From contig NZ_CP059572.1 in NCBI RefSeq assembly GCF_019175365.1, positions 8,184,001 to 8,248,000 on the forward strand: a stretch of 64,000 nucleotides of DNA, given 5' to 3'. A program made the translations under genes and the position numbers. Shown here piece by piece: positions 27,210 through 47,243 of the stretch. Position 1 is the first letter of the stretch, and each line of letters starts with the position of its first letter. The notes under the pieces were generated by a model. That model was not told the DNA's origin and did no database searches. It saw only the letters and a list, made by a program, of their open reading frames with translations. The stretch is from Actinomadura graeca (GTDB taxonomy: Bacteria; Actinomycetota; Actinomycetes; Streptosporangiales; Streptosporangiaceae).

Positions 27210-28109
27210 TCATGATGCTTCGCCGGGTGGGGTCTCCCCAATCACTCGTACCCAGCGCTTCTTCTCCAAGTCCCAATCGTAGGTCGGTCTCGTAAAGTCG
27301 AAGTCACGCCCACCCAGCCACCTGAATTCACCGGGGTAGTCCCCAAACCCAAATTCTTTGGCGACGGTACGCCCATTGAAGTCCAATGATGCAGTCAGGT
27401 TTCCTGTGTAGAGATAACCCTTGCGTGATTCGACGCTAATTATCACGGTACCCGAATCCCGACCTTGCAGCTTGATCGAGAACGGGGGCATCACCCCCTT
27501 CTTTCCCGTGTTGTAGTCCTCGACTTTGGTTACACCTGAGACAGTATTTACGCTGATGAAGTATCCGGCGTCACCGCCAGCACCGTATTTGCATTTTATG
27601 AGGACATAGTCTTTTGGTGCCGGGAGCCTTTTGGTTACAGATGCGGTGATGCCTGTGACCGTAAGGATGTCCGGCGATCCGGCCTGTAGTGACATGGCGA
27701 AAGTCGGGATGGTGGCATACACTTTTGGCTGCCCGCCCATCCACGAGAGCCATTCGCCGCAGTGGCTTCGGATCGCGCCAGGAGAGTAGTCCGGTGGTCT
27801 GGGGATTGCGCTCGGCGGGCCGTCGAACAAGAAGGAAACCCCCCCTTGCCATATGAAATCCAGCTTTTCGACGCTCTTCGGTGCTGGCGCACAGTTCAAG
27901 TTATTGTTTGAGCCTTGGGCAACACAGTTCCCATTTTGGACGTTTTGATTGTTCTGGACAGGCGATCCTGGCTTATCATCGCCCTTCTGCCATTCATAGA
28001 TGGCATAAGTTAGGATGAGCCCCACAGCGGCGAGGATTACTCCGACCGCTTGCCAATGTGGCCTGGTCCAAAATGACCCCCCATCGCTCCCAGCACCTCC
28101 GGACGTCAC
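27210..28109 (-). CDS. Single-pass membrane protein with beta-rich exterior, unknown
   Basis: 299 residues from GTG 28109, with GGGAG seven bases upstream. A short cytoplasmic N-terminus (VTSGGAGSDGGSFWTRPHWQ) leads to one membrane helix at about 20-40. Next comes an Asn/Gln-rich spacer (VQNNQNVQNGNCVAQGSNNN) and a 220-residue, beta-rich extracellular part ending in WDLEKKRWVRVIGETPPGE. Several Cys (C62, C73, C116, C166) may form disulfides. I recognise no family. Codon use is less GC-rich than the nearby IS genes, suggesting acquisition. Flanked by IS3 debris on one side and an ISL3 remnant on the other. Confidence 0.65.
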   Translation of the reverse strand: MTSGGAGSDGGSFWTRPHWQAVGVILAAVGLILTYAIYEWQKGDDKPGSPVQNNQNVQNGNCVAQGSNNNLNCAPAPKSVEKLDFIWQGGVSFLFDGPPSAIPRPPDYSPGAIRSHCGEWLSWMGGQPKVYATIPTFAMSLQAGSPDILTVTGITASVTKRLPAPKDYVLIKCKYGAGGDAGYFISVNTVSGVTKVEDYNTGKKGVMPPFSIKLQGRDSGTVIISVESRKGYLYTGNLTASLDFNGRTVAKEFGFGDYPGEFRWLGGRDFDFTRPTYDWDLEKKRWVRVIGETPPGEAS

Positions 28110-28249
28110 ACCATTTCTCCCTTGTCACCGAAGAAGACTTTTTTGCAGAGAAGTACTCTGCCCTAAGAGATGTGATCAATGCCTCAACGTGACTACATCG
28201 ACATCAAATTGGCCACTAGCGGACAGAAGTGCATTTGATTCCAGGGTCA

Positions 28250-29215
28250 TCTGGGTGCCACCGGTTTCGCTGGCGGGCCGGGCGGGTGCTCGCCTGTCAC
28301 AGGTGCTGCAGGTCGTGGTGTCGAAGTCGACGGCGCTGCGGCTGCTCATGCGGCTGCCACTGCCGCCGCTGCGGATCCCGCGGGTGCCCGGGGTCGATGA
28401 CTTCGCCTTGAAACGCCGCCACCGCTACGCCACCATCCTCACCGACGCCCAGACCGGCGAGCGCATCGACGTTCTCCCCGGCCGCGGCGCCGACGCTCTT
28501 GAGGCGTGGCTGCGTACCCACCCCGGGGTCGAGATCGTCTGCCGGGACGGCTCAGGTGCCTACGGCGAGGCGATTGGCAGGGCGTTACCTGAGGCGGTGC
28601 AGGTCAGCGACAGGTGGCACGTGCAGAAGAACCTCTGCGACAAAACCCTCGCCGAGGTCCGCTCTCACAATTCCTGCTGGGCCACGGTCAACCCTGCCCT
28701 GCCTGCCGGTGCCCGGGAGCAGACCACCCGGGAACGCCGGCAACAGATCCACGACCTGCTGGACAAGGGCGCCGGCCTGCTGGAATGCGCACGCCGCCTC
28801 AATCTGTCCCTGAACACCGTCAAGCGCTACGCCCGCACCCGCCAGCCCGAAGCCCTGCGCCGCACTCCGCGCTACCGGCCCACCCTGGTCGATCCCTACC
28901 GCGATCACCTGCGGGAGCAGCGCGCCGCCGATCCGGCCGTCCCAGTCCTCCAGCTGTTCCACCAGATCAAGGAACTCGGTTACACCGGCAGCCTCAACCT
29001 TCTCTACCGCTACATCACCCAGGGCCGGGCCGAGGGCGACCGGCCCGTCATCACCCCACGCCGACTCACCCGGCTCCTGCTCACCCGCCCCGATAGGCGG
29101 CGCGAGGCCGACACCCGGCTCCTGCAGGAACTCACCGCTGCCTGCCCCGAGCTGGCCGAGCTCGCCCGCCTGGTCCACGGCTTCGCCGAACTCCTCACCC
29201 CCGGGACGTCGGTGA
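28250..29215 (+). pseudogene. ISL3-family transposase, central/C-terminal fragment
   Basis: One long plus frame carries the ISL3 core: SKSTALRLLMRLPLPPLRIP, VPGVDDFALKRRHRYATILT, VEIVCRDGSGAYGEAI, VSDRWHVQKNLCDK, LECARRLNLSLNTVKRYART and LGYTGSLNLLYRYI. The N-terminal zinc ribbon is absent upstream, and the frame runs into unrelated text after AELLTPG at about 29205. The missing N-terminus lies next to it on the opposite strand. Confidence 0.85.
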
Positions 29216-29217
29216 CG

Positions 29218-29457
29218 GTCCGGCCGCACAAGCCGTGTACCCGCCCGGTCAGGACCCCGCACACCGGGCACGGCACCAGCCCATCCCGGGTGCGGGCCAT
29301 GACCCGAATGCGATCGTTGTCGTCCGCGACATCCTCGATGACCAGCGCAGACAGGCCCGAAAACACCACACTCGTCAGATTGTTGATCTCCAGCACGCCC
29401 CAGGTTGGCAGGTGATCACTCACCGCCACCACCGAATACGGGACAGAGCCGGAAACC
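29218..29457 (-). pseudogene. ISL3-family transposase N-terminal fragment with IS end, inverted
   Basis: Read leftwards from 29457, the ISL3 end GGTTTCCGGCTCTGTCCCG is followed by a start near 29396 and LEINNLTSVVFSGLSALVIE, IEDVADDNDRIRVMA and the zinc ribbon PCPVCGVLTGRVHGLCGR, stopping at TVTDVPG. The same end sequence (TTTCCGGCTCTGTC) occurs at 45500. It faces away from the rest of the transposase at 28250-29215. Confidence 0.8.
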
Positions 29458-29526
29458 GTACAGGCCCCCTGAAATTCGTTGTAGACATCGGGCGGGGGAG
29501 CCGAGGATCTCCTCGGCGGTCTTGGT

Positions 29527-30441
29527 CTAGGGCGTGTTTCGAAGTAGGTGGAGCCATTCGTTGATGGCCGTGATCTCAAGGACAGCCTGGTAGCGGACGC
29601 GGAGCTTGTCGTACCTGGTGGCCACGGCCCGGTGCCGCTTGAGACGGTTGATGCCGCACTCCACAGCATGACGGGCCTGGTAGTCGGCCGGGTCGAAGGC
29701 GGGTGGACGGCCGCCGCGGCTGCCCCGCCGCGACCGGTGCCCGGCCTGATCGGCCGGAACCGGGATCGTGGCGGCGATACCGCGGCGGCGCAGGTGGTCC
29801 CGGATCGCCTGGGACGAGTACGCCTTGTCGGCCCGGACCCGGTCCGGCCGGGTCCGGGGACGGCCCGGCCCGGCGCGGGCGACCCTGATCTGGGCCATCA
29901 CGGCCGGGAACTGCGGGGCGTCGTCGCGCTGCCCGGCCGTCACCACCAGCGACAACGGCATCTGGCCCTGCTCACACGCCAGATGCACCTTGGTCGACAA
30001 CCCGCCGCGCGAGCGTCCCAGCGCATGATCGGCCGGCTCGGCGACCGTCCCGCCGGGCGGCTCACGCTGCAGGTCGCCGTTCCGCCGGGCTCCGGCGGCC
30101 TGCTGGTGGGCCCGCATGATCGTGGAGTCGACGCCCACCTCCCAGCCGATCAGCCCGGCGGCATCGGCCCGGGTCTGCAGGGCGACCAGGATCTGTGCCC
30201 AGGCACCGTTGCGCTGCCAGCGGCGAAACAGCCCGTAGACGGCCTGCCAGGAGCCGTAACACTCCGGAACGTCCCGCCACGGCGCGCCGGTGCGCACCCG
30301 CCAGCGGACCCCGTCGATGAGCTGCCGTCTGGTCCATCTCGACGGTCGACCCGGCCGCCTGGGAACGGGCAGCAACGGCCCCAGGACCGCCCATTGCGCG
30401 TCGGTCAGGTCGAACCGCCTCGTCACCGCTAGGGTGGCCAC
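29527..30441 (-). CDS. IS5-family transposase
   Basis: 304 residues, complete: an N-terminal helix-turn-helix part of the DUF4096 type ([40 protein letters not shown]) and a DDE domain with [56 protein letters not shown] and [20 protein letters not shown]. Catalytic D, D and E are present, so it should be active. The TAG stop codon is supplied by the CTAG target site outside the element (the last codons are AAC ACG CCC TAG), so its C-terminus depends on where it lands. Confidence 0.92.
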
Positions 30442-30546
30442 GCGGTCTCCGGTTTCAGGTTCTTCTTGGTCGATGAACCACCTACCGGAGACCTCGCTAT
30501 GTCCGGCTCACAACACGCCGAGGTTCAACTCACTTCGAAACACGCC
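29531..30546 (-). mobile_element. IS5-family element with CTAG target duplication
   Basis: Terminal inverted repeats GGCGTGTTTCGAAGTAGG (29531) and its partner CTTCGAAACACGCC (ending 30546) are flanked by CTAG at 29527-29530 and 30547-30550. This is the youngest insertion in the region, since its ends and gene are intact. Confidence 0.92.
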
Positions 30547-31515
30547 CTAGACGAACGGTTTGGGGTTGGTGTTCCACTGGGCCATCCAGGCGCGGACATC
30601 GGCTTCGAGGGCTTGGACGCTTTTGTGGACACCGCGTTGGGTGAGCTGGGTGGTGAGGTAGGCGAACCAGCGCTCCACCTGGTTGATCCAGGAGGACCCG
30701 GTCGGGGTGAAGTGCACGTGGAAGCGCGGGTGCTGGGCCAGCCACTGAAGGATGAGCGGTGTCTTGTGTGTGGCCAGGTTGTCGCAGACCAGGTGCACCT
30801 CCAGCCCGGCGGGGACGGCCTTGTCGATCGCGACCAGGAACTTTTTGAACTCGGTGGCGCGGTGCCGGCGGTGCAGTTCGGCGATGACGGTGCCATCGGC
30901 GATGTTGAAGGCGGCGAACAGGCTGGTGACCCCGTGCCGGGCGTAATCGTGGGTGCGCCGCTCGGGCATGCCCGGCATCATCGGCAGTACCGGTTGCGAA
31001 CGGTCCAGCGCCTGCATCTGCGACTTCTCGTCCATGCACAGGATCACGGCGCGCTCGGGCGGGTGGTGGTAGAGCCCGACCACGTCCACCACCTTCTCCA
31101 CGAACAGCGGGTCGGTGGAGATCTTGAAGGTGCCGGCTCGGTGTGGCTTGAGGTCGAACCGTCGCCAGATCCGCCCGATGGTGGACCTGCTCAGCCCGGT
31201 GCGTTCGGCCATCGAGGCCCTCGACCAGTGCTTGGCGCCCGCCGGGGTCTGCTCCAGGGTGAGCGTGACCACTTCCTCCACGCGATCCAGCAGGATCGAG
31301 GGCGGACGGCCCGGGCGAGGCTCGTCGACCAGACCGGCCAGGCCATGCTCGCTGAACCGGCGCCGCCATTGGGCCACCGTCGGCGGGGAGACTCCCAGCT
31401 CGGCGGCCACATGGCTGTGGAACGCGCCCGGCTCGGCGCACGCCAGCACGATCCGGCACCGCAACGCATACGCCTGCGTCGAGGTCGCCGCCCGCGCCCC
31501 ACGCTCAAGCTCCAC
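30547..31515 (-). pseudogene. IS630-family transposase, interrupted by IS5
   Basis: 322 readable residues with [54 protein letters not shown] and [20 protein letters not shown], including the D, D and E of the DDE core. The C-terminus stops at NPKPFV where the IS5 copy begins. The missing tail (TKTAEEIL) is found beyond the IS5 at about 29510-29526. The N-terminus is also frameshifted: [16 protein letters not shown] near 31572 is in another frame. Inactive. Confidence 0.88.
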
Positions 31516-32825: not shown

Positions 32826-32950
32826 GCGGATTCAAGTGGTCGTTGCAACGCCTTGCTGTCGGAGGTGTTGACAGCGGCAGCCCGGCACGATCGACCAGCA
32901 GGTGGATCTTCGACCCGCGCTTGCCGCGATCGACAGGATTCGGGTTCGTC
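32826..32950 (-). pseudogene. IS5-family transposase fragment
   Basis: Minus text NPVDRGKRGSKIHLLVDRAG followed by LPLS is a conserved IS5 block just after the first catalytic Asp. It abuts the truncated PIN gene and is likely the cause of that truncation. Confidence 0.65.
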
Positions 32951-33208
32951 TGAAGCCGAACTGGTCTGCGCGATCTTGGGAAGTCGCCGGTATACTTCGG
33001 CGTACACGTGGTCGGAGGCGTAGAGCAAGGCTGTTCCGTCGTCGGTCATGCGAAGCAAGCGCGACCGCCATTGTGGGCCATGCTCGACGTCGTTGCGGAT
33101 GCTGCTGAGCAGGGCGCAGGTATCTACAACGCCGAGGAACCTTGGGTTCATGCTGCCATAGGGGTCGAGGTGGGCCGGGCTCGGCAACCCTGTGGACAGA
33201 CTCTCCAT
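32945..33208 (-). pseudogene. PIN-domain protein, 3' end lost to IS
   Basis: From ATG 33208 (MESLSTGLPSPAHLDPYGSM) the frame gives RFLGVVDTCALLSSIRN, with the first PIN-domain Asp, then ASDHVYAEVYRRLPKIAQTS with a conserved Glu. The rest, including the later acidic residues of the RNase site, is replaced by IS5-like sequence. It lies 140 bases downstream of the STAND gene on the same strand. It may have been a partner or a second toxin of that locus (inference). Confidence 0.6.
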
Positions 33209-33347: not shown

Positions 33348-36300
33348 TCACCATTCACGATCGTCTGAGGGCATGTCGTCCTCGGCCAGGCTCTGGCGGA
33401 TCGACGACGCCGCGTCTCGAGCGAGGGCTCGGTAGAATCCTTCCTCGGGGCTGCCTGGTATCGCTTGGTCGGCGAGTCCGTGGGCAATCTTTTGGCGTTC
33501 AATGTCTTCAGGGAATGGCTGGCCGAGGTCGGCGGAGGACTCACCTGCGGTCACTGATCTGAACAGGGCGCTCTGGATTTCTCTGAGTTGTTCTTGGCCG
33601 CAGGCGTCGGCAGCGCGGAAGCAGGAGCGTACGAAGGGCAGATCCCAAGCCAGGTCGCGGGGGGCGCCGCGGAGCATTATCGCGACGACCTCCATCCTGA
33701 TGGGGTCGGGTTGGTCCAAGTATTCGGTGATGACCTGGCGGGTTTGGGCGTTGAAGGAACCGGCCACCGCGGAGAACAGTTGGGAACCGTAGTAATGCAT
33801 CCGTTTTAGGTTCGGTGATGATGCCAGTCGTTCACGGACACGGCGGAGCAGGTCGGGGTAGTCGTCGTGTTCCTGGAAGTGCAGCCGGTCATGCCATCTG
33901 TCCGGCAATGGCCGGTAGTTCGCGCCGTCGTGGGACTTCGCAACTCGTGCTATCAGGAGCTCTAGCGTGGCGATCGGCTCGTCTCGGCTCCGCTGCGCGA
34001 GGAAGGCCAGGAGGTGGTAACTGTCATCGAACGAGGGGACGTCACGCAGAGTGCGGAAGATCTCGTCGCGGTGGTGCTGTTCCAGGTCGCTCCAGGCGAA
34101 GGAACCGTGAGGACCGAGAATGAGCGCGAGTTCGTCCATCATGGCGATCTTCTGACCGGAAGGTGCGCAGGTGAGCAGCTCGGCCGCAAGCTCCCGGTGC
34201 CGGCCCTCGAACGCGTGCACAGCGCCGATTGTGGCCGCCTGCACGATTCCAGTGGGATCGGGGTACTGCATCAGGGCCCGTAGCAGTGCCGTTTCTCCTT
34301 CGAGGAGACCGGATCTGCCGCGCTGTATACCGAACCCGTGAGCGATGCTCCGCGCCAGCACCAGATCACCAGCGGCGAGCATGTGCTGGCCCAAGCCGAT
34401 GACGTACGGATCGGCCAGCTTCGCCAGAGCCGACACGACCGTGTGCATCAACGGGCTCAGCGGACCGTCCGGGGCGTTCGCCACGCGCTCGCATATCATG
34501 CGGCCCACAGCGGGGCGGGCGGTGATCAGGGACCACAGGAACGGGTGGGCGTTATGGCCGTCGTCGTTCAACGTCAGCCTCAAATCGCGCAGTGACCGTT
34601 CGATCAGATCGATCACCTCGTTGTCGGCCAGATCAATGATCGCCTCCACGCAGTTTGCCAGCGCCTCCTCTTTATCGTTCTGGCGATCGAGGAAGGTGCG
34701 GATCTTCTGGTCTGCGGGAGGATCGGCCGGGCCGTTGTGGAGAGCGCGGGCCACCTCGTGCTCGGGGCGTCGGGGGATCCCGCCCAGGACCTGTCGTGCT
34801 GCCAGGCGGACATCACCCGGTCCGCGCTCGGCGCTCCATTCCAGCTCCTTGCGTAGAACGACGTAGACGGCGGGAGACAGCACGACGCTGCCGAGGACCG
34901 CTCGCAGCCGCAGCAGCGTCGAGGCGAAGTGTCTGTACCACGGCGCGCGCATCTGCTCGGTCACCTCGAGGCCGTAGCCCCCCCGGGGAGGCGACAGCGC
35001 GGCCCCGATCGTCTCGACGGCGGCGACCACGCGGCGTGGCTCTGCCTCGGCCAGTTGCGCGAACGCGAGGTCAATGACCTGCTCGCGCAGTGCGACAACG
35101 GGTTCGGCATCAGGGTCGATGAGGAAGGGACGGTACGTCAGTGTGTGGCGGCTCCAGGTCTGCTCGTGGGCATCAGCCGCGAGCAGAGGATGCAGGATCG
35201 TCAAAGGTTCGTGGACGTCGGTCGTTCGTCGCGGGCGGCCCAGGATCCGCTCGATGAGGGCGGGTAGCCGTAGCTGGTAGACGGTAATGCCTCTGCGATC
35301 GAACCCCGCGATCCCCTCCAACAGGCGCATGCCGTGGTCCGGGGTCCGGTTCAGGAGCCGAGCGTCGTCGCGCGCCAACTCCCACAGCAGGAGGACAGCC
35401 TGGTCGAAGGCGTCGAGATCGTAGGCGGCCGCACGTAGGACCGGAGCCGCCGCTTGGCGGACCTCTTCGTCGGTGACGTTGACCAAGAGCCCGAACCCGG
35501 CGTCGAGTCCTGCCTTCTGAGCGGGATGCTCCATCGCCCACTCGACGAGCTCGAGAACAGGTCGTGGCTGGTAGAAGGCAACCTTGGCGAGGACACTGAG
35601 GATCCCCTGGCGCGCTGCGGCATCGCCGTGCCGGAACTCCGCGCTCAATGATTCCCACAGGGAGACGACCAGATGGCCTCTGCGCGGCGGGGACTCCTGC
35701 CAGTCGACCCGACTGGCGTTGACCAGAAGATGGACAAGCGCCTGTCCGTCGGCGACCTCGCGGACGCGTTCGAGGTATCCGGTCGGCGATGGCGTCTGCG
35801 GCATCAGGGCGGCGCGGGCCAGGATCGCGTCGCCCAGGAGGTCTGGAACGATTCGGTAGCTCTGTCCGCGGCGCAGCATGATCCCCACGTCCTCCCATGC
35901 CGTCAGATGGGGGAGCAGTTGGTCGAACGGTCTGCCCGTCAGGCGAGCAAGCGCCTCGCGGAATTCACCGTCCCCGGTTCGCACCGGCTGCAACGCGGCC
36001 ACCGCGCGCAAGACCTCCTCCCGGGTGTCAGTCTGATCCGTGGGGGCTCGGGCGATCGAGTCGACCAGGGAACCGATCAGTTCCCGGCGCAGCTCATTGT
36101 CGCCTTCGAACCTGCCAGGATCTATCACCCCCTCACGGACGGCGATGCACCCGATGACGAGCAGGAACGGCGAATCCCACGCGATATGCGCCAGCCTGCG
36201 TGCCGCGAACTCTGAGGAAGCGCCGAGGATTTCGCGGGCCAGAGTCTCGGCCCCTTCGCGATCGAGGTCGGGTACGTCCAGGCGGAGGGTATCGGGTAGG

Positions 36301-37415
36301 TCGGCGCCGACCGCGCGCAGTTCCCGGCGGATCCGCGCCTCGCCGTCTGGCCGTGAGGTTAGCAGTACTTTGGCGCTGGGGTTGACGGCGAAGATGCCTG
36401 CGACGACCTTGCCGACTGGCACGCCGTCGTCATGGGCGTCATCGACCACCAGCAGCAGGCTCCCCGGCGGAAGTTGCTCGAATCCCTGCCGATCTACCGT
36501 CGAGTCGCGCTCCAAGAATCTGATGGCGACCTCGGTCTCCTCAAGGTCGTCGCAGAGGGCACGCACCAGCCGTGTCTTCCCGATGCCGCCCCGCCCCACC
36601 ACCACCGCCACCCTCCCGGACGGGCCGCCCGTGAAGGTCTTCAGTTCCTCCACCAATGCCTGCCTGCCGACTAGGGTCCAGCGCTGACTCGAACGCTCGC
36701 TGCGGTCCAGCCGGCCGAAGTACTGCGACGGATCGAGCCAGGGGCCTGGTAGCAGGACGCCGAGAAAGCTCTCACGCAGCAACGGGAAATACCGGTCCAC
36801 GATCGGCACGGACTCCGAGAGATGGAGGTCGTGCACAACATGCGACAGCTTGTTCTTGTCCCAGATCTGCCAACCTCGCATGCGTGCCTCCGTCTGCGCA
36901 CCCGGCGTCGCCGTACGCGACAAGAAGATCAGGTTGAGGCCAGCCCGCTCCTTGACGCCTTCATCAGCTTTGATGACCTTGGCCGGGCCGAACTCACTTT
37001 CCCTCTTGCACTGGATCCCGACGATCAGCTTCGTACCGTCTTCCACGTGGACATCGAAGCCGCCCTGAGTGTGACCCGTCTTCCCGACCCGGTAGCAGTT
37101 CATACCGGGCCAAGATCGCCGCGCGAGCGTCAAGGAGAAGTCCTCGAACTCCTCCGCCGTGAGAGTTTCGAACGGCAACTCAGCCAGCCGTGCGCGACCG
37201 GAAAAGCCGCCCGCGCCGGCCGTCCGTGGCCAGACGCCCGAAGGAAGAGACAGCACCCGGGCGACGAGCACCTTGGTGTCATCTGGCGGCTCCGACACAC
37301 CGCGTTCCCAGCTACTGACCGTCCGCTGGGCCACCCCGACATTCACCGCGAGTTCGCCCTGCGTCCAACCACGCGCTTTCCTCGCCACACGAACGGCATC
37401 ACCAAAGACCGACAC
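33348..37415 (-). CDS. XRE-HTH / Mrr-like nuclease / STAND NTPase, putative anti-phage protein
   Basis: 1355 residues, with domains in order. An XRE helix-turn-helix lies at about 5-60 (FGDAVRVARKARGWTQGELA, RTVSSWERG). A restriction-endonuclease-fold domain at about 80-200 has EEFEDFSLTLARR, Asp121 in GGFDVHV and Q135-C-K137 in GIQCKRES, a D-(E/Q)xK site of the Mrr type. A STAND P-loop NTPase has Walker A GRGGIGKT at about 274-281, Walker B LLLVVDDAHDD at about 320-330 and LLTSRPDGEA. About 800 residues of helical repeats form the likely sensor. Nuclease-STAND fusions such as Avs proteins sense phage proteins and cleave DNA (established for that class). An added XRE domain suggests self-regulation or DNA targeting (inference). 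No membrane segment. A truncated PIN gene follows. Confidence 0.82.
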   Translation of the reverse strand: MSVFGDAVRVARKARGWTQGELAVNVGVAQRTVSSWERGVSEPPDDTKVLVARVLSLPSGVWPRTAGAGGFSGRARLAELPFETLTAEEFEDFSLTLARRSWPGMNCYRVGKTGHTQGGFDVHVEDGTKLIVGIQCKRESEFGPAKVIKADEGVKERAGLNLIFLSRTATPGAQTEARMRGWQIWDKNKLSHVVHDLHLSESVPIVDRYFPLLRESFLGVLLPGPWLDPSQYFGRLDRSERSSQRWTLVGRQALVEELKTFTGGPSGRVAVVVGRGGIGKTRLVRALCDDLEETEVAIRFLERDSTVDRQGFEQLPPGSLLLVVDDAHDDGVPVGKVVAGIFAVNPSAKVLLTSRPDGEARIRRELRAVGADLPDTLRLDVPDLDREGAETLAREILGASSEFAARRLAHIAWDSPFLLVIGCIAVREGVIDPGRFEGDNELRRELIGSLVDSIARAPTDQTDTREEVLRAVAALQPVRTGDGEFREALARLTGRPFDQLLPHLTAWEDVGIMLRRGQSYRIVPDLLGDAILARAALMPQTPSPTGYLERVREVADGQALVHLLVNASRVDWQESPPRRGHLVVSLWESLSAEFRHGDAAARQGILSVLAKVAFYQPRPVLELVEWAMEHPAQKAGLDAGFGLLVNVTDEEVRQAAAPVLRAAAYDLDAFDQAVLLLWELARDDARLLNRTPDHGMRLLEGIAGFDRRGITVYQLRLPALIERILGRPRRTTDVHEPLTILHPLLAADAHEQTWSRHTLTYRPFLIDPDAEPVVALREQVIDLAFAQLAEAEPRRVVAAVETIGAALSPPRGGYGLEVTEQMRAPWYRHFASTLLRLRAVLGSVVLSPAVYVVLRKELEWSAERGPGDVRLAARQVLGGIPRRPEHEVARALHNGPADPPADQKIRTFLDRQNDKEEALANCVEAIIDLADNEVIDLIERSLRDLRLTLNDDGHNAHPFLWSLITARPAVGRMICERVANAPDGPLSPLMHTVVSALAKLADPYVIGLGQHMLAAGDLVLARSIAHGFGIQRGRSGLLEGETALLRALMQYPDPTGIVQAATIGAVHAFEGRHRELAAELLTCAPSGQKIAMMDELALILGPHGSFAWSDLEQHHRDEIFRTLRDVPSFDDSYHLLAFLAQRSRDEPIATLELLIARVAKSHDGANYRPLPDRWHDRLHFQEHDDYPDLLRRVRERLASSPNLKRMHYYGSQLFSAVAGSFNAQTRQVITEYLDQPDPIRMEVVAIMLRGAPRDLAWDLPFVRSCFRAADACGQEQLREIQSALFRSVTAGESSADLGQPFPEDIERQKIAHGLADQAIPGSPEEGFYRALARDAASSIRQSLAEDDMPSDDREW

Positions 37416-37469
37416 ACTTTACCGTAGCATAGGCGATGCTACGAATTCTATCGGTACGGAATCGATTTT

Positions 37470-37868
37470 ATGAGATCCTCGTCTGTTTTCACGGCAGGCG
37501 TTCCGACCGGTGTCGTCTACCTATCCTCGTGCCACGGCCGCTGCGACCACGCGACCGTGGCAGTTGCGGAGCACAGGGGCAGGCCGATAATCCTGTACCT
37601 ATGGGCCGTCACACTGGCCAACGAGGGCGCCGAGCTGGGGAGTTCGCTACCGTCTGAGGTGGTTGTGAGAGCGTTCGCTGCTCCTCAAGACGCTCGCCGA
37701 GCCGCACGCCGAGATGGACTTCGCGTGTTATCCCTGGAGACGCTGGGCTTCCTTGCACTTGTCGATCATTATCCGCAGAGTGGAGTCGATGCCGTCGACT
37801 CACCGAGCCACCCTTCGGCTGCAGCTCATTCCCCTTCGTTGGAGCATGCCGTCCTCCGGCTCTTGTAG
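37470..37868 (+). CDS. Small hypothetical protein
   Basis: 132 residues from ATG 37470, divergent from the STAND gene with a 54-base gap. The first 100 residues look protein-like (GVVYLSSCHGRCDHATVAVA, PIILYLWAVTLANEG), while the tail is low-complexity. The ribosome site is weak (GGAAT). It overlaps no other credible gene, but I recognise no family and it may be a chance frame or a relic. Confidence 0.3.
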   Translation: MRSSSVFTAGVPTGVVYLSSCHGRCDHATVAVAEHRGRPIILYLWAVTLANEGAELGSSLPSEVVVRAFAAPQDARRAARRDGLRVLSLETLGFLALVDHYPQSGVDAVDSPSHPSAAAHSPSLEHAVLRLL

Positions 37869-38089: not shown

Positions 38090-39592
38090 TCAAACGGCGG
38101 GAGGTGCCGGGGCCGCCAGCCGCACGAACCCTCCTCCGCCTTCCTCAGTCGGTTCGATCCGCCACCCCGCCGGGACCCGATGCCCCAGCCCGGCATCGGC
38201 CACCGTCGCCGCCTCCAGATCGACGCCGCGCGAGAAGGACGCATCACCCAAGGTGACAACGCTGGTGAATGCGGTTTGCGCGAAGACGGCATCCCCGCTG
38301 AAGGCTGCGCCGTCGAACATAGTGTTCTCGGTGAAGGTCGTGCCGTCGAACCAAACGTCCCCGGTGAAGGTCGTGCCGCCGAACCAGGCGTCTCTGGTAA
38401 AGGTCGCGGCGTCGAACCCAGCGCTCGCGGCGAAGGTTGCCCCGTTGAACCTGGTGTCTCCGGCGAAAGTCGCTCCGCGGAACAGCGCACTCCTGGCGAA
38501 GATCGTCCTGAAGAACAGGGCGTCCCTGATGAAGGTCGCGGCGACGAACCAGGCATTCCTGTTGAAAGTCGCGCCGTCGAACATGGCGTTCTCGGTGAAA
38601 GTCGCACGGTCGAACCGGGCATTCCCGGTGAAGGTCGTGCCGCCGAACCAGGCGTCTCTGGTGAAGGTTGCGGCGTCGAAGCCAGCGCTTCCGGCGAAGA
38701 TCGCCCTGTTGAACCAGGCGTCTCCGGTGAAGGTCGCCTCGCCGAATCTGGCGTCTCCAGAGAGGGTGGCATGGGTGAGGTCGGCGGTATGCAGGTGGCA
38801 GCGTGTCAAAGCGAAGTCGATGAGGGTGGCGCCGCTCAGGTCCAGGGAGATGCCCTGCCAGTGGACATCGGCGACGGGTTGCAGGTGGGCGTGCAGGAGG
38901 CGCTGGGCGGTGAGGCGGACCTGGAGTTCCTCGTGCGGATCGAGCCCGGCGGGTGCCGGTGGGCCGTCGGCGGCGGGTCGCCGGGCGCGGGCGGCGCGGT
39001 AGCGGGCAGTGTTGCGGCGGGCCCGTTCGCGGTTCTCCTTTTCGGGATCCGGCGGGGAGGGCCGGGCAAGCGGGGTGAACGGCATCCTCAAGTACGCGCA
39101 GATGATGTTAACGATGGTCTGCCGGTGGGTGGGGTTGCCATTGGCCAGGCGTTCCAGGGTGTACAGGGCGGTGAGCCGGACCGGGGCCTTGTCCGAGCCG
39201 AGCTGTTCGGCGGAGGCGTTGTACAGCTCGGTGACCCGTCGCTCGGCGGCGTCCAGTTCACCGAGTGCGGTGGCCAGTTCCTGGTGGCGCTGGCGGCGGA
39301 AGGCCAGCATCAGCCCGGTCGCGGCGCCGGCTCCGGCGCCGGCGGCCAGGCCGGTGCGGACTGCGTCCACCCGGACCTTGGCGCGCTCGGTGCCGGCCTT
39401 GGCGTCGTCGGCGACATCCAGCAGCCACGCGGTGGTCAGCCAGATCGTCGCTGCGGCAGCTGCGGCGGCCGCCAGCATCCAGAACCCCGCCGCCAGTGGC
39501 CGGACCTGTAGCTCGCGGGCTGTCCGGCGCGCCCGCGTGTTCGTCCAGTGCCGCCGTGCCCGTGCCAGTCCGCGCCCTGTTCGTCCGCTCAC
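38090..39592 (-). CDS. Membrane-anchored pentapeptide-repeat protein
   Basis: 500 residues from ATG 39592. Two membrane helices at about 33-60 and 80-98 are followed by a helical region with LTALYTLERLANGNPTHRQT, then IVNIICAYLRMPF, found in many actinomycete pentapeptide-repeat proteins. From about residue 235 to 470 an A(D/N)xxF-type pentapeptide repeat runs (ATFTGDAWFNRAIFAGSAGF and so on), predicting a right-handed quadrilateral beta-helix of about 45 coils. The DNA of this part (38240-38770) is itself repetitive, with near-copies such as AAGGTCGTGCCGCCGAACCA at 38367 and 38632. Function unknown; it may be a surface scaffold or immunity-type protein. It is not in an operon. Confidence 0.85.
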   Translation of the reverse strand: MSGRTGRGLARARRHWTNTRARRTARELQVRPLAAGFWMLAAAAAAAATIWLTTAWLLDVADDAKAGTERAKVRVDAVRTGLAAGAGAGAATGLMLAFRRQRHQELATALGELDAAERRVTELYNASAEQLGSDKAPVRLTALYTLERLANGNPTHRQTIVNIICAYLRMPFTPLARPSPPDPEKENRERARRNTARYRAARARRPAADGPPAPAGLDPHEELQVRLTAQRLLHAHLQPVADVHWQGISLDLSGATLIDFALTRCHLHTADLTHATLSGDARFGEATFTGDAWFNRAIFAGSAGFDAATFTRDAWFGGTTFTGNARFDRATFTENAMFDGATFNRNAWFVAATFIRDALFFRTIFARSALFRGATFAGDTRFNGATFAASAGFDAATFTRDAWFGGTTFTGDVWFDGTTFTENTMFDGAAFSGDAVFAQTAFTSVVTLGDASFSRGVDLEAATVADAGLGHRVPAGWRIEPTEEGGGGFVRLAAPAPPAV

Positions 39593-40304: not shown

Positions 40305-41295
40305 TGAAGCGCCCCGGGTTTGCTGGAGGCTCGATTGCTTGGAGAGGATCGAGTCATGGCACGTCTGTCCCCCTATCCCCTCGAGTTGCGTAACCGCGCG
40401 GTGCGGATGGTCACCGAGGTCCGTGCGGACTACGACACCGAGACCGCCGCGTTGCGGGCGGTGGCGGTGAAGCTGGGCATCCGCTCGCCCGAAACGCTGC
40501 GGAATTGGGTCCGCCAGGCCGAGGTCGATACCGGTCAGCGGGCGGGGACCACGACCGAGGAGGCCGCCGAGATCAAGCGGCTGCGCCGAGAGAACGCCGA
40601 ACTCAAGCGCGCCAACGAGATCCTCAAGGCCGCGGCGGGTTTCTTCGCGGCCGGGCTCGACCGGCCACAGCGGTTCTCATAGCGTTCATCGACGCCTTCA
40701 AGCAGGTGTTCGGAGTCGAGCCGATCTGCCGCGTGCTGCGCGAGCACGGCGCGGCGATCGCACCGTCCGCCTACTACGCTGCCCGTTCCCGCCCGCCCTG
40801 GAGCCGGGCGGTCCGGGACGAGTGGCTCAAGGCCGAGATCACCCGGGTCCACGCCGCCAGCTACGGCGTCTACGGGGCCCGTAAGGTCTGGCACCAGCTG
40901 CGCCGCGACGGGTGTCGGGTCGCCCGCTGCACGGTGGAGCGGTTGATGCGCGAGCTGGGCCTGCAGGGCGCCCGGCGCGGCCGCTGCATCCGCACCACCG
41001 TGCCCGACGACCGACACCAACGGGCCGCCGACCTGCTCGCCCGGGACTTCACCGCGTCCGCGCCGAATCGGCGATGGGTGGCCGACTTCACGCACGTGGC
41101 CACCTTCGCCGGCATCGTGTACGTGGCGTTCGTGGTCGATGTGTTCTCCCGCGCCATCGCCGGCTGGGCCGCGGCCACCACCAAACAGACCCGGCTGGTC
41201 CTGGACGCCCTCGACATGGCGCTATGGCGGCGCGACCGCACCGGCCGCCCGGTCGGACCCGGGCTGGTGCACCACAGCGACGTCGGCTCGCAACT
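40305..41295 (+). mobile_element. IS3-family element, right part replaced
   Basis: The left end TGAAGCGCCCCGGGTTTGCT is typical of IS3 members. orfA and most of orfB follow, but the sequence switches to IS481-type text at about 41295 and no right end is seen. Confidence 0.75.
40356..40682 (+). CDS. IS3 OrfA (transposase N-terminal part)
   Basis: 108 residues from ATG 40356 (MARLSPYPLELRNRAVRMVT). Helix-turn-helix part ETAALRAVAVKLGIRSPETL and RNWVRQAE, then a leucine zipper (IKRLRRENAELKRANEILKA), the standard OrfA layout. In intact IS3 elements a -1 shift near its end fuses it to OrfB; here orfB begins in the next frame at about 40680. Confidence 0.88.
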   Translation: MARLSPYPLELRNRAVRMVTEVRADYDTETAALRAVAVKLGIRSPETLRNWVRQAEVDTGQRAGTTTEEAAEIKRLRRENAELKRANEILKAAAGFFAAGLDRPQRFS

Positions 41296-41560
41296 TGGGC
41301 TCAACCGGCTGTCGCACATCGACCGCGTCACCGGCGAACCGGTCCGTCGCTACGAAACGACCGGCCTAGCGCGATGCTGCACATCCATGTCAAGAAACTC
41401 GGCAACATCCCCGACTGCAGCAGCTGGTGCTACCTCGGCCGCCTCGAGAGCGACCGCAACCGAGAGGCCACCGCCCGCCGCACGGGGCCCGCAACACCTG
41501 CTACGAGCCCAGGATCGGCACTTGCTCTGCGCCAAGATCAACGATCTTGAATGCCTGGCG
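40680..41560 (+). pseudogene. Chimeric IS3 OrfB / IS481 fragment
   Basis: The frame starts as OrfB: LIAFIDAFKQVFGVEPICRV, VYGARKVWHQLRRDGCRVAR, RRWVADFTHVATFAGIVYVA and GLVHHSDVGSQ. At about 41295 it changes to LGLNRLSHIDRVTGEPVRRY, and in the next frame LHIHVKKLGNIPD, both from IS481-family transposases. The third catalytic residue (Glu) of OrfB is lost. The transition is abrupt, suggesting recombination between two IS copies rather than simple decay. Confidence 0.8.
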
Positions 41561-41619
41561 TTACGGGACGGTCTTTAGCTGGGACGTGCCCGGTTGCATG
41601 GCGGGTACGAAAGGTGGAG

Positions 41620-44600
41620 TTATGGGCAGGCTTTCTGGTAGGGCTGACTGTCGATGTACTGATCCCATTCTTTTGAGTTGAGTGAACCGTTGATGCGGCA
41701 GATTTCGGTGATTGGGTCGGCTAGGCGTTGGGTCTTCCAGTAGCGCAGGGAAAACGGAGGGTCTGTGGCGGTATCGGTATCGGTCTCGTCTGGATCGTCG
41801 TAGCTGAGTGAGACGAGGTCGCCCGATGTGGTGAAAGTAAGCCGGGTGTCGTAGTCGGTGGGCTCATGGAGCGGGGGGCCGAGTGGGTGGCGTGTGGGGA
41901 GATCCCAGAGTTGGACTGAGCTCGCGGCGGTGATTGCGGTAGCGACTGCCAGGGTCCGCCCGTTTCGGTCGAAGGCCATGGCGGTGACGGGCACTGTGGA
42001 TGTGGTGAGGGAGTTGCCGGTCTGTTTTCCGGAGGTGACATTCCAAAGCCGCACGGTTCCGTCGACCGCGGAGGAGGCGAGGGTGGCGCCGTCGGGGCTG
42101 AAGGCGAGACCGGTCAGTTGGCCTGTGTGCCCTGTTAACGCTGGCGTCCTTTCTCGGCCGGTTCGCGTGTCCCATAGGTGGATCGTGAGGTCGTAGGTGT
42201 GGTTGCCGGTGGGCAGGTCGATGCCGTTGGCGGTGGCGATCGTATGGCCGTCTGCACTGTAGGCGAGGTAGGATTTGCTGCGGCCAAGGGGCCCTGCGGT
42301 TCGCTTCCCAGTCCGTGCGTCCCAGATAGTGAGTCCGCCGCCCCAGCCAACTGTAGCGAGATGGCGACTGTCCGGAGAGAACGCCATCGCTCCGAAACGG
42401 GCAGCGTTAGGTACGGTGATCGATCCTGTCAGGGGGCGTCGAGACGGAAGATCCCATAGTTGGAAGATCGTGGACGTGGCACCAGGGGATGACCCGGTTG
42501 CGAGGGTCCGCTGGTCCGGGCTCACAGCCATCAGTTCGATGGCGTCCAGATGTGGTTGTGGAAGGGCGGCCGTTTTGACGGCGCCCTTGGGTCCGTCCCA
42601 GGTCTTCAGTTGGCCACCCTGGGTTATTGTCAGGATTGAATCGCTCGTCAGTGCTGTCATATCGGCTATCCCCGCTTCCTGGATTGCCGGTCCGACCGGG
42701 CGTCGCACCTTCGCGTTCCAGGCCCTGACGACGGTGTCGTAGGAACTGCTGACCACCGTTGATCCATCGGACGTGAACGCCAAGCCGGTGATGAACTCGC
42801 CGTGTGCCTTGATGGGATCACCCAGAGGCTGCGCGGTGGCGGTGTCCCACAAGTAAAGTTTTCCTTTCTCATCGCCCGTGGCGATTGTAGAGCCATCGGG
42901 GCTTACGGCCAGCGTGAGGGCGTTGGCGGTATTCGGCGGGAAGAAGGGGCCTGTGATGTCGTGGGTGGTGGAATCCAAGATCCAGATCCCGGCCTTGTCC
43001 CCGTGAAGTTCCGGATCGTTGATGGCTGCATCGGGCTGCCCGAGCAGGACAACGTGCTTTCCATCAGGCAAGAACGCGACTTCGCCGTTCAGCACATCCG
43101 CGGGTGAGGTGTTGAGCCGCTGGCCGGTCGCGGTGCTCCACAAGCGCACTGGGGAACCGCCCGAAGCGAAGATCCGACTGTCAGGACTGAACACCAACGT
43201 CCCCGTCCCGGCGCCTGCGGGAAGGCTGCGAACCGCGGTGCGCGAGCGGAGATCCCACAGCGTAACCTTGGCACCACCTGTGGCGAGCATTCTCCCGTCG
43301 GGACTGAAGACGACCCTTGAAGAACCGGGGATCTTGTCGGGCAGCTCCCGGCGTGTCGCCACATCCCACAGCCTGATCGTGGTGGCGGCCGCACCTAGGG
43401 TGCGCCCGTCGGGGCTGAACGCAACGTCGAAGAACGCATCGCCGCGCAATGCGATCACATGTTCGCCTGTCACTCTGTTCCAGACGCGCACGGTACCGTC
43501 AAAGCTCGCTGAAGCCACCAGGCGGCCGTCAGGGGAGACGGCCACGTCGACCACTCGCTTGGTGTGGTCCCGGCTCTCGCCGCGGAACGGTGCGGCCAGC
43601 AGCCCGTCGACGGCCGCGCGGGCCTCGTCTGTGGGGCTGACTCCCCAGGCCGTGGCCGCCAGACGCGCGGCAGTGGCAGGTTCTGCGTCTTTGAGCAGCT
43701 CGCCTCGGGCCGCCAGTGCCCGTGATGTGGCCGCCCGCTGCCCGGCCACGGCTCGATCGCGTTGTCGTCCGGACTCGTTCTGCTCCCGGAACGCCCATGC
43801 GGCCGCGCCCGCAATGATGACCAGCAGGACCGCCATGACGGCGGCGACGATCCGGTTTCGCCGGGCGATGGCGATCTGGACCTGGGCGCACGCATCCAGG
43901 AACTGGCGTTCCGCCGCCGTGGTCAGTCGGCCCGGTGCGGATGCCCACTCCAAAGCCTGCCGGAACGCGGTTCCACCGAGGACGTCTGAGGGTTGTCGGC
44001 CATGCTGCCGCCAAGCGCGTGCGGCCGACCTCAGCTGCGCATGCACATGCAGGCCCTGCAGATCGGACTTGATCCAGGTATGCATCCGCTCCCAGGCATG
44101 CGGCAGGGCGGGCCTGGCCAGAACCACCTCCCCGTCGCGCGAGGACACCAGCTGATCGAACTCCCGCAAGATCCGGTGGACGGCGCCCGGTGCTTCTTGG
44201 CCCAGCTCCAGTTCCTCTGCCGGGACCCGGCGGATAGCGATCTCATTGCGTTCGCCGATCGCGATGAAGCGCAGCAGAACTTGGTGAGCCATGGCCCGAT
44301 CCTCGGGTCGAAGGCGCTCGTACGCCTGCTCAGCGATGACCTCCAGCGTCGGGTTCACCGGCTGCCAGCGGTGGAGCAACGGCTCGGCGACGGCCTTTCC
44401 CGCAGCCAGAAGCCTGGCCGGATCGGTCTCGGTTTCCCCGATCAGGTAGGAAAGCACCTCCTTGGCCAGCGGACGGTCGCGCCTGGCCACCGCGAGCGAC
44501 GCCGTAACCAGCCCCCGTAGGGCCCGGGGGAGGCCTGTCAAATCAGGCGGATGGCGCGCCATCCATACATCGCCGTTGGGGGTACGCGGGACGTCGAACG

Positions 44601-45249
44601 CCTTGCATCCTGTGGCGGCGAAGAAGATGACCGCGCCCCAGGCGAAAACATCCGCGGCAGGCCCGCCCCGGTTTCCCTGATAGAGCTCAGGTGCGATGTA
44701 GCCGGGTGTGCCTGCGAAGGGGAACTCCGTGCCCGAATGCGTCAGCAGGATGCGTGAGACCCCGAAATCGATGACTCGCGGGCCGTCCGGTCCGAGCAAG
44801 ATGTTGTCGGGCTTGAAATCGCGGTGCACCACCTGGACCCCGTGGATAGCTGTGAGCGCGGTCGCGGTTCCCACGGCGAGGTGGTAAAGATCGTCGCCCG
44901 ACAGCCTGGCCCCCGGTCGATACCGGCCGCCGGCGCCGAACCCAAGTACCGCCTGAGCAAGGTTGAGGCCCTCTACGTACTCGCTGGCGATATACGGCCG
45001 GGGCCCCTTGAGATCCACATCCAGGACTCGGGCGGTACAGAACGATGGAACCCGCTTGAGCGCTCGCGCCTCACCCTCCAACCCTTTAATGTCATGGCTC
45101 TCCCCCGGGAGCAGCTTCAGCGCGACTCGCTGCCGATCCTGGCGGCGATAGGCCTCATAGACGACTCCCTGCGCACCCGACCCGAGACGCCGCTCAAGCA
45201 CGTACGGACCGACGTACTCGAGCGCACTTACCCTCTCCGAAGCCCTCAC
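41620..45249 (-). CDS. Membrane Ser/Thr protein kinase with two WD40 propellers
   Basis: About 1209 residues from GTG 45249, with GGA eight bases upstream; an in-frame TTG at 45264 is the alternative. The kinase domain (about 12-270) has LGSGAQGVVYEA, VALK, catalytic loop VHRDFKPDN, VIDFGVS and GTPGYIAPELYQGNRGG, all intact. A helical linker and one membrane helix (AAVMAVLLVIIAGAAAWAF, near 470) precede about 13 WD40 repeats (FSPDGRTLGAAATTIRLWD and so on), enough for two seven-blade propellers. The C-terminus WDQYIDSQPYQKACP is typical of actinomycete WD40 sensors. Topology puts the kinase inside and the propellers outside, a receptor-like layout. Target unknown. Flanked by IS debris on both sides. 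Confidence 0.9.
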   Translation of the reverse strand: MRASERVSALEYVGPYVLERRLGSGAQGVVYEAYRRQDRQRVALKLLPGESHDIKGLEGEARALKRVPSFCTARVLDVDLKGPRPYIASEYVEGLNLAQAVLGFGAGGRYRPGARLSGDDLYHLAVGTATALTAIHGVQVVHRDFKPDNILLGPDGPRVIDFGVSRILLTHSGTEFPFAGTPGYIAPELYQGNRGGPAADVFAWGAVIFFAATGCKAFDVPRTPNGDVWMARHPPDLTGLPRALRGLVTASLAVARRDRPLAKEVLSYLIGETETDPARLLAAGKAVAEPLLHRWQPVNPTLEVIAEQAYERLRPEDRAMAHQVLLRFIAIGERNEIAIRRVPAEELELGQEAPGAVHRILREFDQLVSSRDGEVVLARPALPHAWERMHTWIKSDLQGLHVHAQLRSAARAWRQHGRQPSDVLGGTAFRQALEWASAPGRLTTAAERQFLDACAQVQIAIARRNRIVAAVMAVLLVIIAGAAAWAFREQNESGRQRDRAVAGQRAATSRALAARGELLKDAEPATAARLAATAWGVSPTDEARAAVDGLLAAPFRGESRDHTKRVVDVAVSPDGRLVASASFDGTVRVWNRVTGEHVIALRGDAFFDVAFSPDGRTLGAAATTIRLWDVATRRELPDKIPGSSRVVFSPDGRMLATGGAKVTLWDLRSRTAVRSLPAGAGTGTLVFSPDSRIFASGGSPVRLWSTATGQRLNTSPADVLNGEVAFLPDGKHVVLLGQPDAAINDPELHGDKAGIWILDSTTHDITGPFFPPNTANALTLAVSPDGSTIATGDEKGKLYLWDTATAQPLGDPIKAHGEFITGLAFTSDGSTVVSSSYDTVVRAWNAKVRRPVGPAIQEAGIADMTALTSDSILTITQGGQLKTWDGPKGAVKTAALPQPHLDAIELMAVSPDQRTLATGSSPGATSTIFQLWDLPSRRPLTGSITVPNAARFGAMAFSPDSRHLATVGWGGGLTIWDARTGKRTAGPLGRSKSYLAYSADGHTIATANGIDLPTGNHTYDLTIHLWDTRTGRERTPALTGHTGQLTGLAFSPDGATLASSAVDGTVRLWNVTSGKQTGNSLTTSTVPVTAMAFDRNGRTLAVATAITAASSVQLWDLPTRHPLGPPLHEPTDYDTRLTFTTSGDLVSLSYDDPDETDTDTATDPPFSLRYWKTQRLADPITEICRINGSLNSKEWDQYIDSQPYQKACP

Positions 45250-45264
45250 GCACTCATTCCACAA

Positions 45265-45546
45265 TGCCAGCGCCCAACGGCGGTAGGCCCGAATCCCGGG
45301 ATACCCGATGAGACCTCTCCGAGCCCTCTTCCTTCCAAGGCTGCAGGGTCCGTGCGTGGCCCTGCCCGCAGCCTGAGACGCGGTGCGCTGCCCCGGGAGT
45401 ACCTAATGAACGGCGGACCCGATGATCAAAAAGACGTCAGGTGACCGACACCGTCGTTGCGGATGAGCCCGGGGAGCAGCCGGTCCAACGGGGGGTCTGT
45501 CCAGTTTCCGGCTCTGTCGCACTTTCGGTGGTGGCGGAGGGTGTGG
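45265..45546. other. Upstream region of the kinase gene and ISL3 end
   Basis: Contains the leftward promoter region of the kinase gene. ISL3-end text CCAGTTTCCGGCTCTGTCGC lies at about 45498, read into the element. No gene is seen. Confidence 0.5.
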
Positions 45547-46770
45547 CTATCGGAGGAGGATGCGGTGGCGTAGTAGGTGGAGGCCTGTTCGGCCGTGCAT
45601 CTGTCTGTTGATCAGTTTGTTCTTGGTGTTGACGCCTTGGGTGCCGCCGTTGTGGTATTCGCTGGTTAGGGCGGTGTGAACAGCGGCTTGGTCGAGTCGC
45701 AGACCGCGGGTGAACGAGTGCACGTGGGGCAGGTTCGCCTCGTCGGCGGTGGTTATCCACTCTTGTAGCCGGTCGGCGTTGTCGACGGCGGGGATCAGGA
45801 GCCGGGCGAGGCTGGGAACCAGCGCGGCGAGGTTGTTCATCTCCGGGCAGGCGCTGGTGGTCGTGGTGAGGAGTTCCCTGCTGGTCGGGTCTGAGGGCCT
45901 CGGGGCGTGTGAGTAGGAGCCGGGCGAGCCTGCGGGGTGACAGGGCGGGGCGGTCGTCCTGGACACGGCCCTGGGTGATGTAGCGGTAGAGGAGGTTCTG
46001 GCTGCCGGTGTAGCCGCGTTCGCGGATCTCGCGCAGGAGCTGCAGGACAGAAACCGCGGGGTCCGCAGCCCGGCGTTTGCGCAGGTATTCGCGGTGGGGA
46101 TCGACAAGCGCGGGACGGTAGTGGGGCGCCCGCCGCACCTGCTCGGGCTTGTCGGCCCGTGCGTGGCGTTTGACGGTGTTCAGGGCCAGGTTCAGCCGCC
46201 GGGCGCATTCCAGCAGGCCAACGCCCGCATCGAGCAGGTCATGGACCTGCTGCCACCGGGCGAGGGTGGTGGTCTTTGCGCCGTCGAGGTTGCGCACCCG
46301 GGAGGCGCTGGCCCAGCAGCCGCTGTGGACCGTGACCTCCTTGCCGGCGGCTTGGGCGAGGTTGTGCCAGATGTGCCACCGGTCCCCGGCCTGCAGGGCG
46401 TCGGGCAGGGCCTGGTGCACGGCGTCGGCGTAGCCCGCGGCACCGTCCCGGCAGACGACCTGCACGCCCGGATGCTCGCGCAACCACACTGCGAGGGTGC
46501 CGGATCTGCGGTCGGGCAGGACATCGCCACGCCGGCGGGTCTCGGCGTCGATCAAAACGGTGGCGCAGGTCCTGGAGCGTCGCAGGGAGAAGTCGTCCAC
46601 GCCCAGCACCCGTGGCGCCGCGACCATCGGTAACGGGATCCGCGACAGGGCTCGCAGTGCGGTGTGAGGGGAGATCGGCGCTGCCAGCGCGGCCAGTATC
46701 CGAGCGCCGGCCCGGCCGGCCAACTCCCGCACCACCACCCCGACCTGGGCGGTGAGCCTCTGCTGGGCGC
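45547..46770 (-). pseudogene. ISL3-family transposase, N-terminus lost and frameshifted
   Basis: From about 46770 the minus frame gives QRLTAQVGVVVRELAGRAGA, VLGVDDFSLRRSRTCATVLI, VQVVCRDGAAGYADAV, AGDRWHIWHNLAQ and ECARRLNLALNTVKRHAR. Near 45900 it shifts to a second frame with LITTADEANLPHVHSFTRGL-type text and LTSEYHNGGTQGVNTKNKLI, the proper ISL3 C-terminus. The zinc-ribbon N-terminus is missing beyond 46770, where IS256 sequence starts. Confidence 0.85.
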
Positions 46771-46793
46771 TAGCTAGCTGGCGCCCAGCAGAG
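46758..46793. repeat. 13-bp perfect palindrome at an IS-IS junction
   Basis: CTCTGCTGGGCGC (46758-46770) and GCGCCCAGCAGAG (46781-46793) are perfect inverted repeats around TAGCTAGCTG. The hairpin lies exactly between the ISL3 fragment and the IS256 fragment. Confidence 0.85.
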
Positions 46794-47243
46794 AGCAGCG
46801 GCATTCGCCAAGGCCCTCAAGCCGGTCTACACCGCGCCCACCGCCGAGGCCGCCGGGGACCGGTTCCTGGAGTTCGCCGAGACCTGGGGCGGATGCTACC
46901 CGGCGATCGTGCGGCTGTGGGAGAACGCCTGGGCCGAGTTCGTCCCGTTCTTGCAGTTCGACATCGAGATCAGACGGGTGGTCTGCTCCACCAACGCCAT
47001 CGAGTCGGTGAACGCCCGCATCCGCCGCGCGGTCAAGGCCCGCGGGCACTTCCCCAACGAGCAGGCCGCCCTGAAGTGCGTCTACCTCGCCGTGATGAGC
47101 CTGGACCCCACCGGCAAAGGCCAGAAACGCTGGATCAGCCGCTGGAAACCCGCCCTCAACGCCTTCGACATCGCCTTCGAAGGCCGCCTGTCCATCAACC
47201 GCCGCTAGACCCACAGATCGAGTTACACCGGAAACTGGACACT
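46794..47243 (+). pseudogene. IS256-family transposase C-terminal fragment with right end
   Basis: The frame from 46795 to TAG 47208 reads AFAKALKPVYTAPTAEAAGD, IVRLWENAWAEFVPFLQFD, EIRRVVCSTNAIESVNARIR and RWISRWKPALNAFDIAFEGR. These are the last third of IS256 (Mutator) transposases with the final catalytic Glu. The right end GAGTTACACCGGAAACTGGA lies at 47220-47243. The 5' two thirds are missing. Confidence 0.88.

Follow-up and report, generated by a model that had tools for sequence, protein, structure and literature searches.

An XRE domain, an Mrr-like nuclease and a STAND NTPase on one chain: a predicted phage-defence protein of Actinomadura graeca with a putative operator at its own promoter

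Triggered proteins that destroy DNA must stay scarce at rest, and little is known about the control of Avs-type genes. In the work of Gao et al. of 2022, Avs4 (AVAST type IV) is said to carry an N-terminal Mrr-like nuclease, a central STAND module and a long repeat C-terminus. The sensors of Avs proteins are tetratricopeptide repeat (TPR)-like. The promoters of C-protein genes in restriction-modification systems contain palindromes, single or in pairs, and some C proteins activate. For bNACHT25 and bNACHT32, infection is reported to lead to DNA degradation and mutation of the active site to abolish defence (PMC12169576). The CARD-NLR-like LypABC system is reported to be under a separate XRE repressor of 132 residues, CdxB, acting in trans (PMC13236601); this is the nearest published case found. 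Here we describe a gene in a window of 64,000 nucleotides of the Actinomadura graeca genome (contig NZ_CP059572.1, positions 8,184,001 to 8,248,000; positions below are those of the window). The gene (33348..37415, minus strand, GTG start, stop included) encodes 1355 residues that join an XRE helix-turn-helix (HTH) domain, an Mrr nuclease, a STAND nucleoside triphosphatase (NTPase) and an alpha-solenoid. With a probability of about 0.63, we read this protein, the query below, as a solo Avs-like nuclease-STAND immune protein with a built-in repressor of its own gene.

This domain order on a single chain had been proposed by a first-pass annotation and was confirmed by Pfam profiles and AlphaFold2 models. 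The plus-strand reading of the interval contains 19 stops in the open reading frame (ORF) check; the gene lies on the minus strand, as do all coding segments given here. The XRE domain (residues 1-60; 37236..37415) scored 37.9 bits with HTH_3 over residues 9-57 (cut-off 23; E 1.8e-9), with the recognition helix (QRTVSSWE) at about residues 29-37. The nuclease (residues 78-205; 36801..37184) was not listed when the whole query was compared with Pfam at E values up to 10. The nuclease piece alone matched the PD-(D/E)XK nuclease profile Mrr_cat (PF04471) at E 1.4e-5, and its 25.6 bits exceed the cut-off of 21, which was also passed by the nuclease piece in 30/31 family members; D121, Q135 and K137, and also E91 and Q117, lie within it. 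The NTPase (residues ~245-540; 35796..36683) contains the Walker A motif GRGGIGKT at 274-281, DDAH at 325-328 and R355. P-loop models matched the query at about residues 248-355, all under their curated cut-offs: nSTAND_NTPase5 (PF25199) with 25.9 bits against 34, AAA_16 with 26.6 against 32.6 and NACHT (PF05729) with 21.0 against 26.7. At E 0.01, HTH_3, AAA_16 and nSTAND_NTPase5 were each matched by 40/40 family members and Mrr_cat by 35/40; nSTAND_NTPase5 is taken as the nearest named clade because all 40 members match it. The rest of the chain (residues ~541-1345; 33381..35795) is a HEAT/ARM-like alpha-solenoid, the proposed sensor.

Residues 1-640, modelled from 40 sequences (mean predicted local distance difference test score (pLDDT) 87.5, predicted template modelling score (pTM) 0.66) showed four HTH helices, a low-confidence linker (residues 63-74, pLDDT <50), an alpha-beta-beta-beta-alpha-beta restriction-endonuclease core with D121 and Q135/K137 on the central strands, and then the P-loop domain. 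The restriction-endonuclease fold that had been anticipated for residues 80-200 is thus present in the model, in keeping with the Mrr_cat match. Residues 450-1355, modelled from 36 sequences (mean pLDDT 90.1, pTM 0.82), formed a long helical solenoid with a few beta hairpins. In Foldseek searches the STAND part gave structural matches to Avs, Apaf-1 and NLRs, with AAA+ ClpA/Hsp104 scoring equally; both Walker motifs (A and B) and a STAND/NLR-like fold were thus found. The first match of residues 1-640 in the Protein Data Bank was Avs4 bound to phage portal (8dgf; E 6.5e-10, 627 columns), while the C-terminal half matched other HEAT/ARM solenoids first. No Avs name was among the 21 PADLOC families listed for the query at E 1, in a library whose AVAST coverage is unconfirmed.

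The query shares with Avs4 the plan of N-terminal Mrr-like nuclease, central STAND module and long repeat C-terminus, but it adds an XRE domain and its own predicted operator, and its C-terminal half is HEAT/ARM-like instead of TPR-like. The fold and D-QxK motif of its nuclease are those of the Mrr-type enzymes (PF04471), which here make up a single module within a STAND protein. The XRE profile of the family matched P22 C2, the 434 repressor, C.BclI (3.6e-5) and C.AhdI (1.7e-4). C.AhdI and C.BclI have the same small XRE-type domain and, like C proteins in general, promoter palindromes of their own, in some cases two; they are separate genes, whereas the query domain is fused to a nuclease and an NTPase. 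bNACHT25 and bNACHT32 (PMC12169576) likewise combine an N-terminal PD-(D/E)XK DNase, a central NTPase and a C-terminal sensing part, but the NACHT match of the query is under the cut-off; the words "HTH" and "Mrr" do not occur in the text of that paper. What the query would have in common with LypABC/CdxB is an NLR-type bacterial immune system under an XRE-family repressor (PMC13236601), but CdxB is a separate protein and in the query the XRE domain is part of the immune protein itself. A literature search returned no XRE-Mrr-STAND chain and no STAND immune protein with its own repressor, although most subscription papers lay outside it and the absence is therefore unproven.

Of the best 7987 candidates scored in a protein search, 119 passed the E 0.001 threshold, namely the query and 118 relatives. 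Most of the relatives are full length, and many carry precomputed PF04471 and PF25199 matches. The same full-length architecture occurs in many bacteria, which rules out both a chance ORF and a fusion seen only once. The remark that an XRE domain on such a chain is unusual thus holds for the XRE-Mrr-STAND order as a type but not within the family, where it is the standard architecture. Among 112 aligned family proteins of 1250-1420 residues, query included, the three residues singled out by the first-pass annotation proved well chosen: D121 is kept in 112, K137 in 107 (with 4 Arg and 1 Glu) and the Walker A lysine K280 in 112. Q135 is kept in 111, and D326 and R355 in 112 each. The nuclease columns of one relative, P0118, are not homologous because its N-terminal domain is a different one (PF13271). 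A search of genome contigs gave 65 loci, 51 of them with an open frame of >1180 residues, mainly in Actinomycetota and Pseudomonadota, with a few records labelled Acidobacteria, Rokuibacteriota or delta-proteobacterial. The genome of the query was one of 3/396 matching genomes in a scan of its phylum, where the other two were partial only, and one of 2/341 in a scan of its own family, where the second is apparently the record of locus L002 (same match coordinates). No second copy was found in its own genome. The family is rare and scattered across distant bacteria.

A traceable target of the XRE domain, a predicted palindromic operator, is the new element here. The sequence CGTAGCAT-CGCCT-ATGCTACG (37423..37443), a perfect 8-bp inverted repeat with an N5 spacer, stops 7 nt short of the start codon and was matched by 1/100 dinucleotide shuffles (p 0.01). 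Its pattern CGTAGCA-N7-TGCTACG occurs exactly once in the 8.98-Mb genome, at the query promoter, with no further site at one mismatch and ten at two. L002, the closest relative for which DNA was at hand (protein 52% identical), keeps both arms at an equal distance, with a different spacer and largely diverged upstream DNA; the two loci share both this pattern and the recognition-helix letters QRxVSS. A possible -10 element, TATGCT (37426..37431, minus strand), lies in the right palindrome arm; it was picked by eye, is weak and was missed by a sigma-70 scan. The scan found 1 site further upstream, against 0.2 expected in shuffles: an alternative promoter-like GTGAAA-16-TAAAAT (37465..37492, minus strand), which agrees at 9/12 positions and is a consensus match only. 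With this promoter, the palindrome would become part of the leader. Under either candidate, the palindrome sits where a repressor could block, and repression is preferred over activation from this position.

The upstream regions of the family were then compared (-130..+20 around the equivalent start; 38 non-redundant HTH-bearing members, namely the query and 37 loci, after removal of seven near-identical loci). The best palindrome, ACACAT-N3-ATGTGT, with 12 fixed bases and up to 2 mismatches, was present in 20/38 upstream regions and in 0/740 control windows. When the full optimisation was rerun, 20 control sets reached maxima of 5-7 and 20 shuffled sets of 3-5, and a motif trained on one random half was found in 8-12/19 held-out members over six splits. 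Ten actinobacterial-type members showed TACGCA-N5-TGCGTA in the same register in 6/10. A site rule was set as ACRCA-N5-TGYGT with at most 1 mismatch, or alternatively the query site with at most 2, and L078 was added to give 39 members; 26/39 had a site by this rule, against 6/1404 control windows. Two non-overlapping sites, 27-37 bp apart, were present in 10/39. In a Pseudomonas/Burkholderiales-type clade not captured by the rule, ACAC-N8-GTGT is present at -66 in 7/8 loci, which count as about four independent lineages because several are 88-100% identical. A palindromic operator pattern of the C-protein kind is thus seen, as a matter of sequence, at the family's own promoters, and this motif evidence supports the autoregulation that the first-pass annotation had suggested.

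Such palindromes might instead be bound by an unlinked regulator, or be promoter or RNA features, with the HTH serving another role such as binding phage DNA. The 13/39 loci without a site would fit this, as would the arms of 21-23 nt in L017, L034 and L040, which are long enough for RNA hairpins. However, the sites go with the HTH: they were found in 26/39 HTH-bearing members and in 0/7 HTH-less relatives (p 0.0014), or in 26/42 when three HTH-bearing loci outside the anchor pattern, none with a site, are added (p 0.0029). They also recur in distant bacteria whose other regulators differ. Furthermore, the usual site was present in 20/31 members with the usual recognition helix against 2/9 with others (p 0.03, a small sample), an association that is partly circular because the motif was learned mostly from usual-helix members. 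We consider this alternative unlikely. Separately, L017, L034, L040, L048, L052 and L021 carry very long inverted repeats before the gene, with arms of 13-23 nt; these repeats consist of two operator-like sites in opposite order and could also form an RNA hairpin.

The distribution of sites over whole genomes bears on what the XRE domain does. In 12 carrier genomes, family-type sites numbered 90 against 102 for the reversed pattern. It had been suggested that the domain directs sequence-specific cleavage, and the query could accordingly be a site-specific or modification-dependent restriction enzyme in which XRE targets the nuclease and the STAND part is merely a regulator; Mrr enzymes belong to type IV restriction, and the HTH lies next to the nuclease in the same chain. 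The suggestion is not supported. The genome has a single exact query-type site, which is also the best-supported one; it lies in the promoter of the gene itself, where cutting would destroy the gene, and family-type sites are neither enriched nor depleted, so that there is no sign of the host avoidance expected if the protein cut there. Moreover, no methylase neighbour is conserved, and HTH-less relatives keep the nuclease, so cutting needs no HTH. A restriction enzyme is thus improbable.

Many actinobacterial regulators join XRE or another HTH to STAND and repeats, and the XRE domain comes with a predicted operator; the query might therefore be a transcription factor of the MalT type, its nuclease fold being a DNA-binding or structural leftover. 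The catalytic D and QxK, however, are almost invariant, which a leftover would not need. Family-type sites are at genomic background in the 12 carrier genomes, and therefore there is no regulon; nor is there a conserved neighbour to regulate. This explanation seems quite unlikely. Given a site in front of the gene that encodes it, the simplest role for the XRE domain is autoregulation, and the domain most likely regulates its own gene, as far as sequence patterns can tell.

The family also contains chains with other front ends. In L003, L004, L005 and L016, the STAND and solenoid parts are kept (best segments 32-41% identity), and the N-terminal stretches have neither HTH nor nuclease; L045, L050 and L079 have the nuclease and no HTH. 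Because relatives lack the HTH or both, HTH and nuclease behave as separable front modules on one sensing chassis. The first four loci are Streptomyces, Streptacidiphilus and Micromonospora relatives with shorter N-terminal stretches, and their effector may lie elsewhere. In P0118 the N-terminal domain is PF13271, which we take to be DUF4062, an effector swap on the same chassis. A domain of this PF13271 type (DUF4062) is reported as a TIR-like NADase (PMC13174449). XRE-less relatives and P0118 together suggest that front modules are interchangeable on the same sensing chassis.

No partner gene is conserved, and no neighbour was common to more than three loci, so the protein probably works alone. 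In a PADLOC scan of 94 of 212 neighbour ORFs (at least 220 residues, 40 loci), 121 families matched one or more of the 94 at E 1e-15, including CBASS-type effectors and cyclase, ThsB, PD-Lambda-4, RmrA, mad3 (MADS), AbiE, Old and TniQ. ThsB adjoins L035 and L038, PD-Lambda-4 adjoins L021 and L041, and a weaker LmuB match adjoins L028; five other neighbour proteins tested alongside gave no match. On a Rhizobium etli plasmid the gene stands among HEPN, helicase, AAA, HNH and MoxR genes. Locus L070, which is identical to L024 (Pseudomonas jessenii), lies in a prophage, with genes for phage tail, endolysin and DNA methylase on its upstream side. The defence-gene neighbours of the family agree with the phage-sensing kind of protein first proposed, and the query is real, conserved and probably a phage-defence protein.

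Around the query itself lie transposases and insertion sequence (IS) elements, a pentapeptide-repeat protein, a kinase-WD40 protein and one PIN-like fragment. The fragment (32912-33151, minus strand), just downstream, resembles the start of a PIN-domain protein (PIN_3 E 0.01, below cut-off) and runs into apparent IS remnants. The pentapeptide-repeat protein (38090-39592, minus strand) has an additional N-terminal region. The kinase-WD40 protein (41620-45264, minus strand) is a long protein kinase with WD40 repeats and an nSTAND1-type stretch (PF20703, 65.1 bits against 27.1), possibly a second conflict-type protein nearby. Transposase genes (ISL3, IS4/5-type, IS630-like, rve integrase) at 27213-31515, 40320-41578 and 45437-46804 mark a plastic region.

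Several observations weigh against a self-repressing Avs-like defence protein. The query half-site is unlike that of the family and is based on two loci, and 13/39 (16/42) HTH-bearing loci have no site by the rule, canonical-helix L011 and L015 among them. The family motif was learned from the same loci, with the split-half test as the only correction, and the relatedness of the proteins means that their sites do not count as independent. The HTH-less control consists of 7 loci, of which L003 and L005 are 88% identical, with upstream regions set by eye. The HTH could also activate instead of repress. On the structural side, the global fit to Avs4 is poor (template modelling score 0.24, root-mean-square deviation 23.4 A), and Avs4 is absent from the 50 rows of a second structural search. 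As for defence, the PADLOC neighbour counts stand without a background set, the query region is mobile and not a recognised defence island, and tblastn with the query against 50,697 phage records gave no relative.

For a built-in repressor on an Avs-like chain, the following order of events can be proposed. At rest, paired XRE domains on flexible linkers would bind the own-promoter palindrome and keep the protein low, the strongest part of the scheme. By analogy, the C-terminal solenoid would recognise a phage product. ATP-loaded STAND modules would then assemble, as the intact Walker motifs and the fold suggest, and the assembly would pair the Mrr nuclease domains, so that DNA is cut, infection is stopped and the cell is perhaps killed. 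More speculatively, the operator may be released upon assembly or by DNA damage, with a rise in expression. In its fullest form, one polypeptide would be sensor, executioner and its own repressor: latent while bound to the promoter, it would leave the operator upon phage-triggered STAND assembly, unleashing the nuclease and derepressing the gene in positive feedback. We regard this coupling as possible but doubtful.

With a control element within an immune protein, a predicted site known to the base and a family spread over distant bacteria, a direct test is possible. If repression and activation are indeed coupled, the protein would be a compact genetic circuit in a single chain, and it could show how dangerous immune proteins are held in check.

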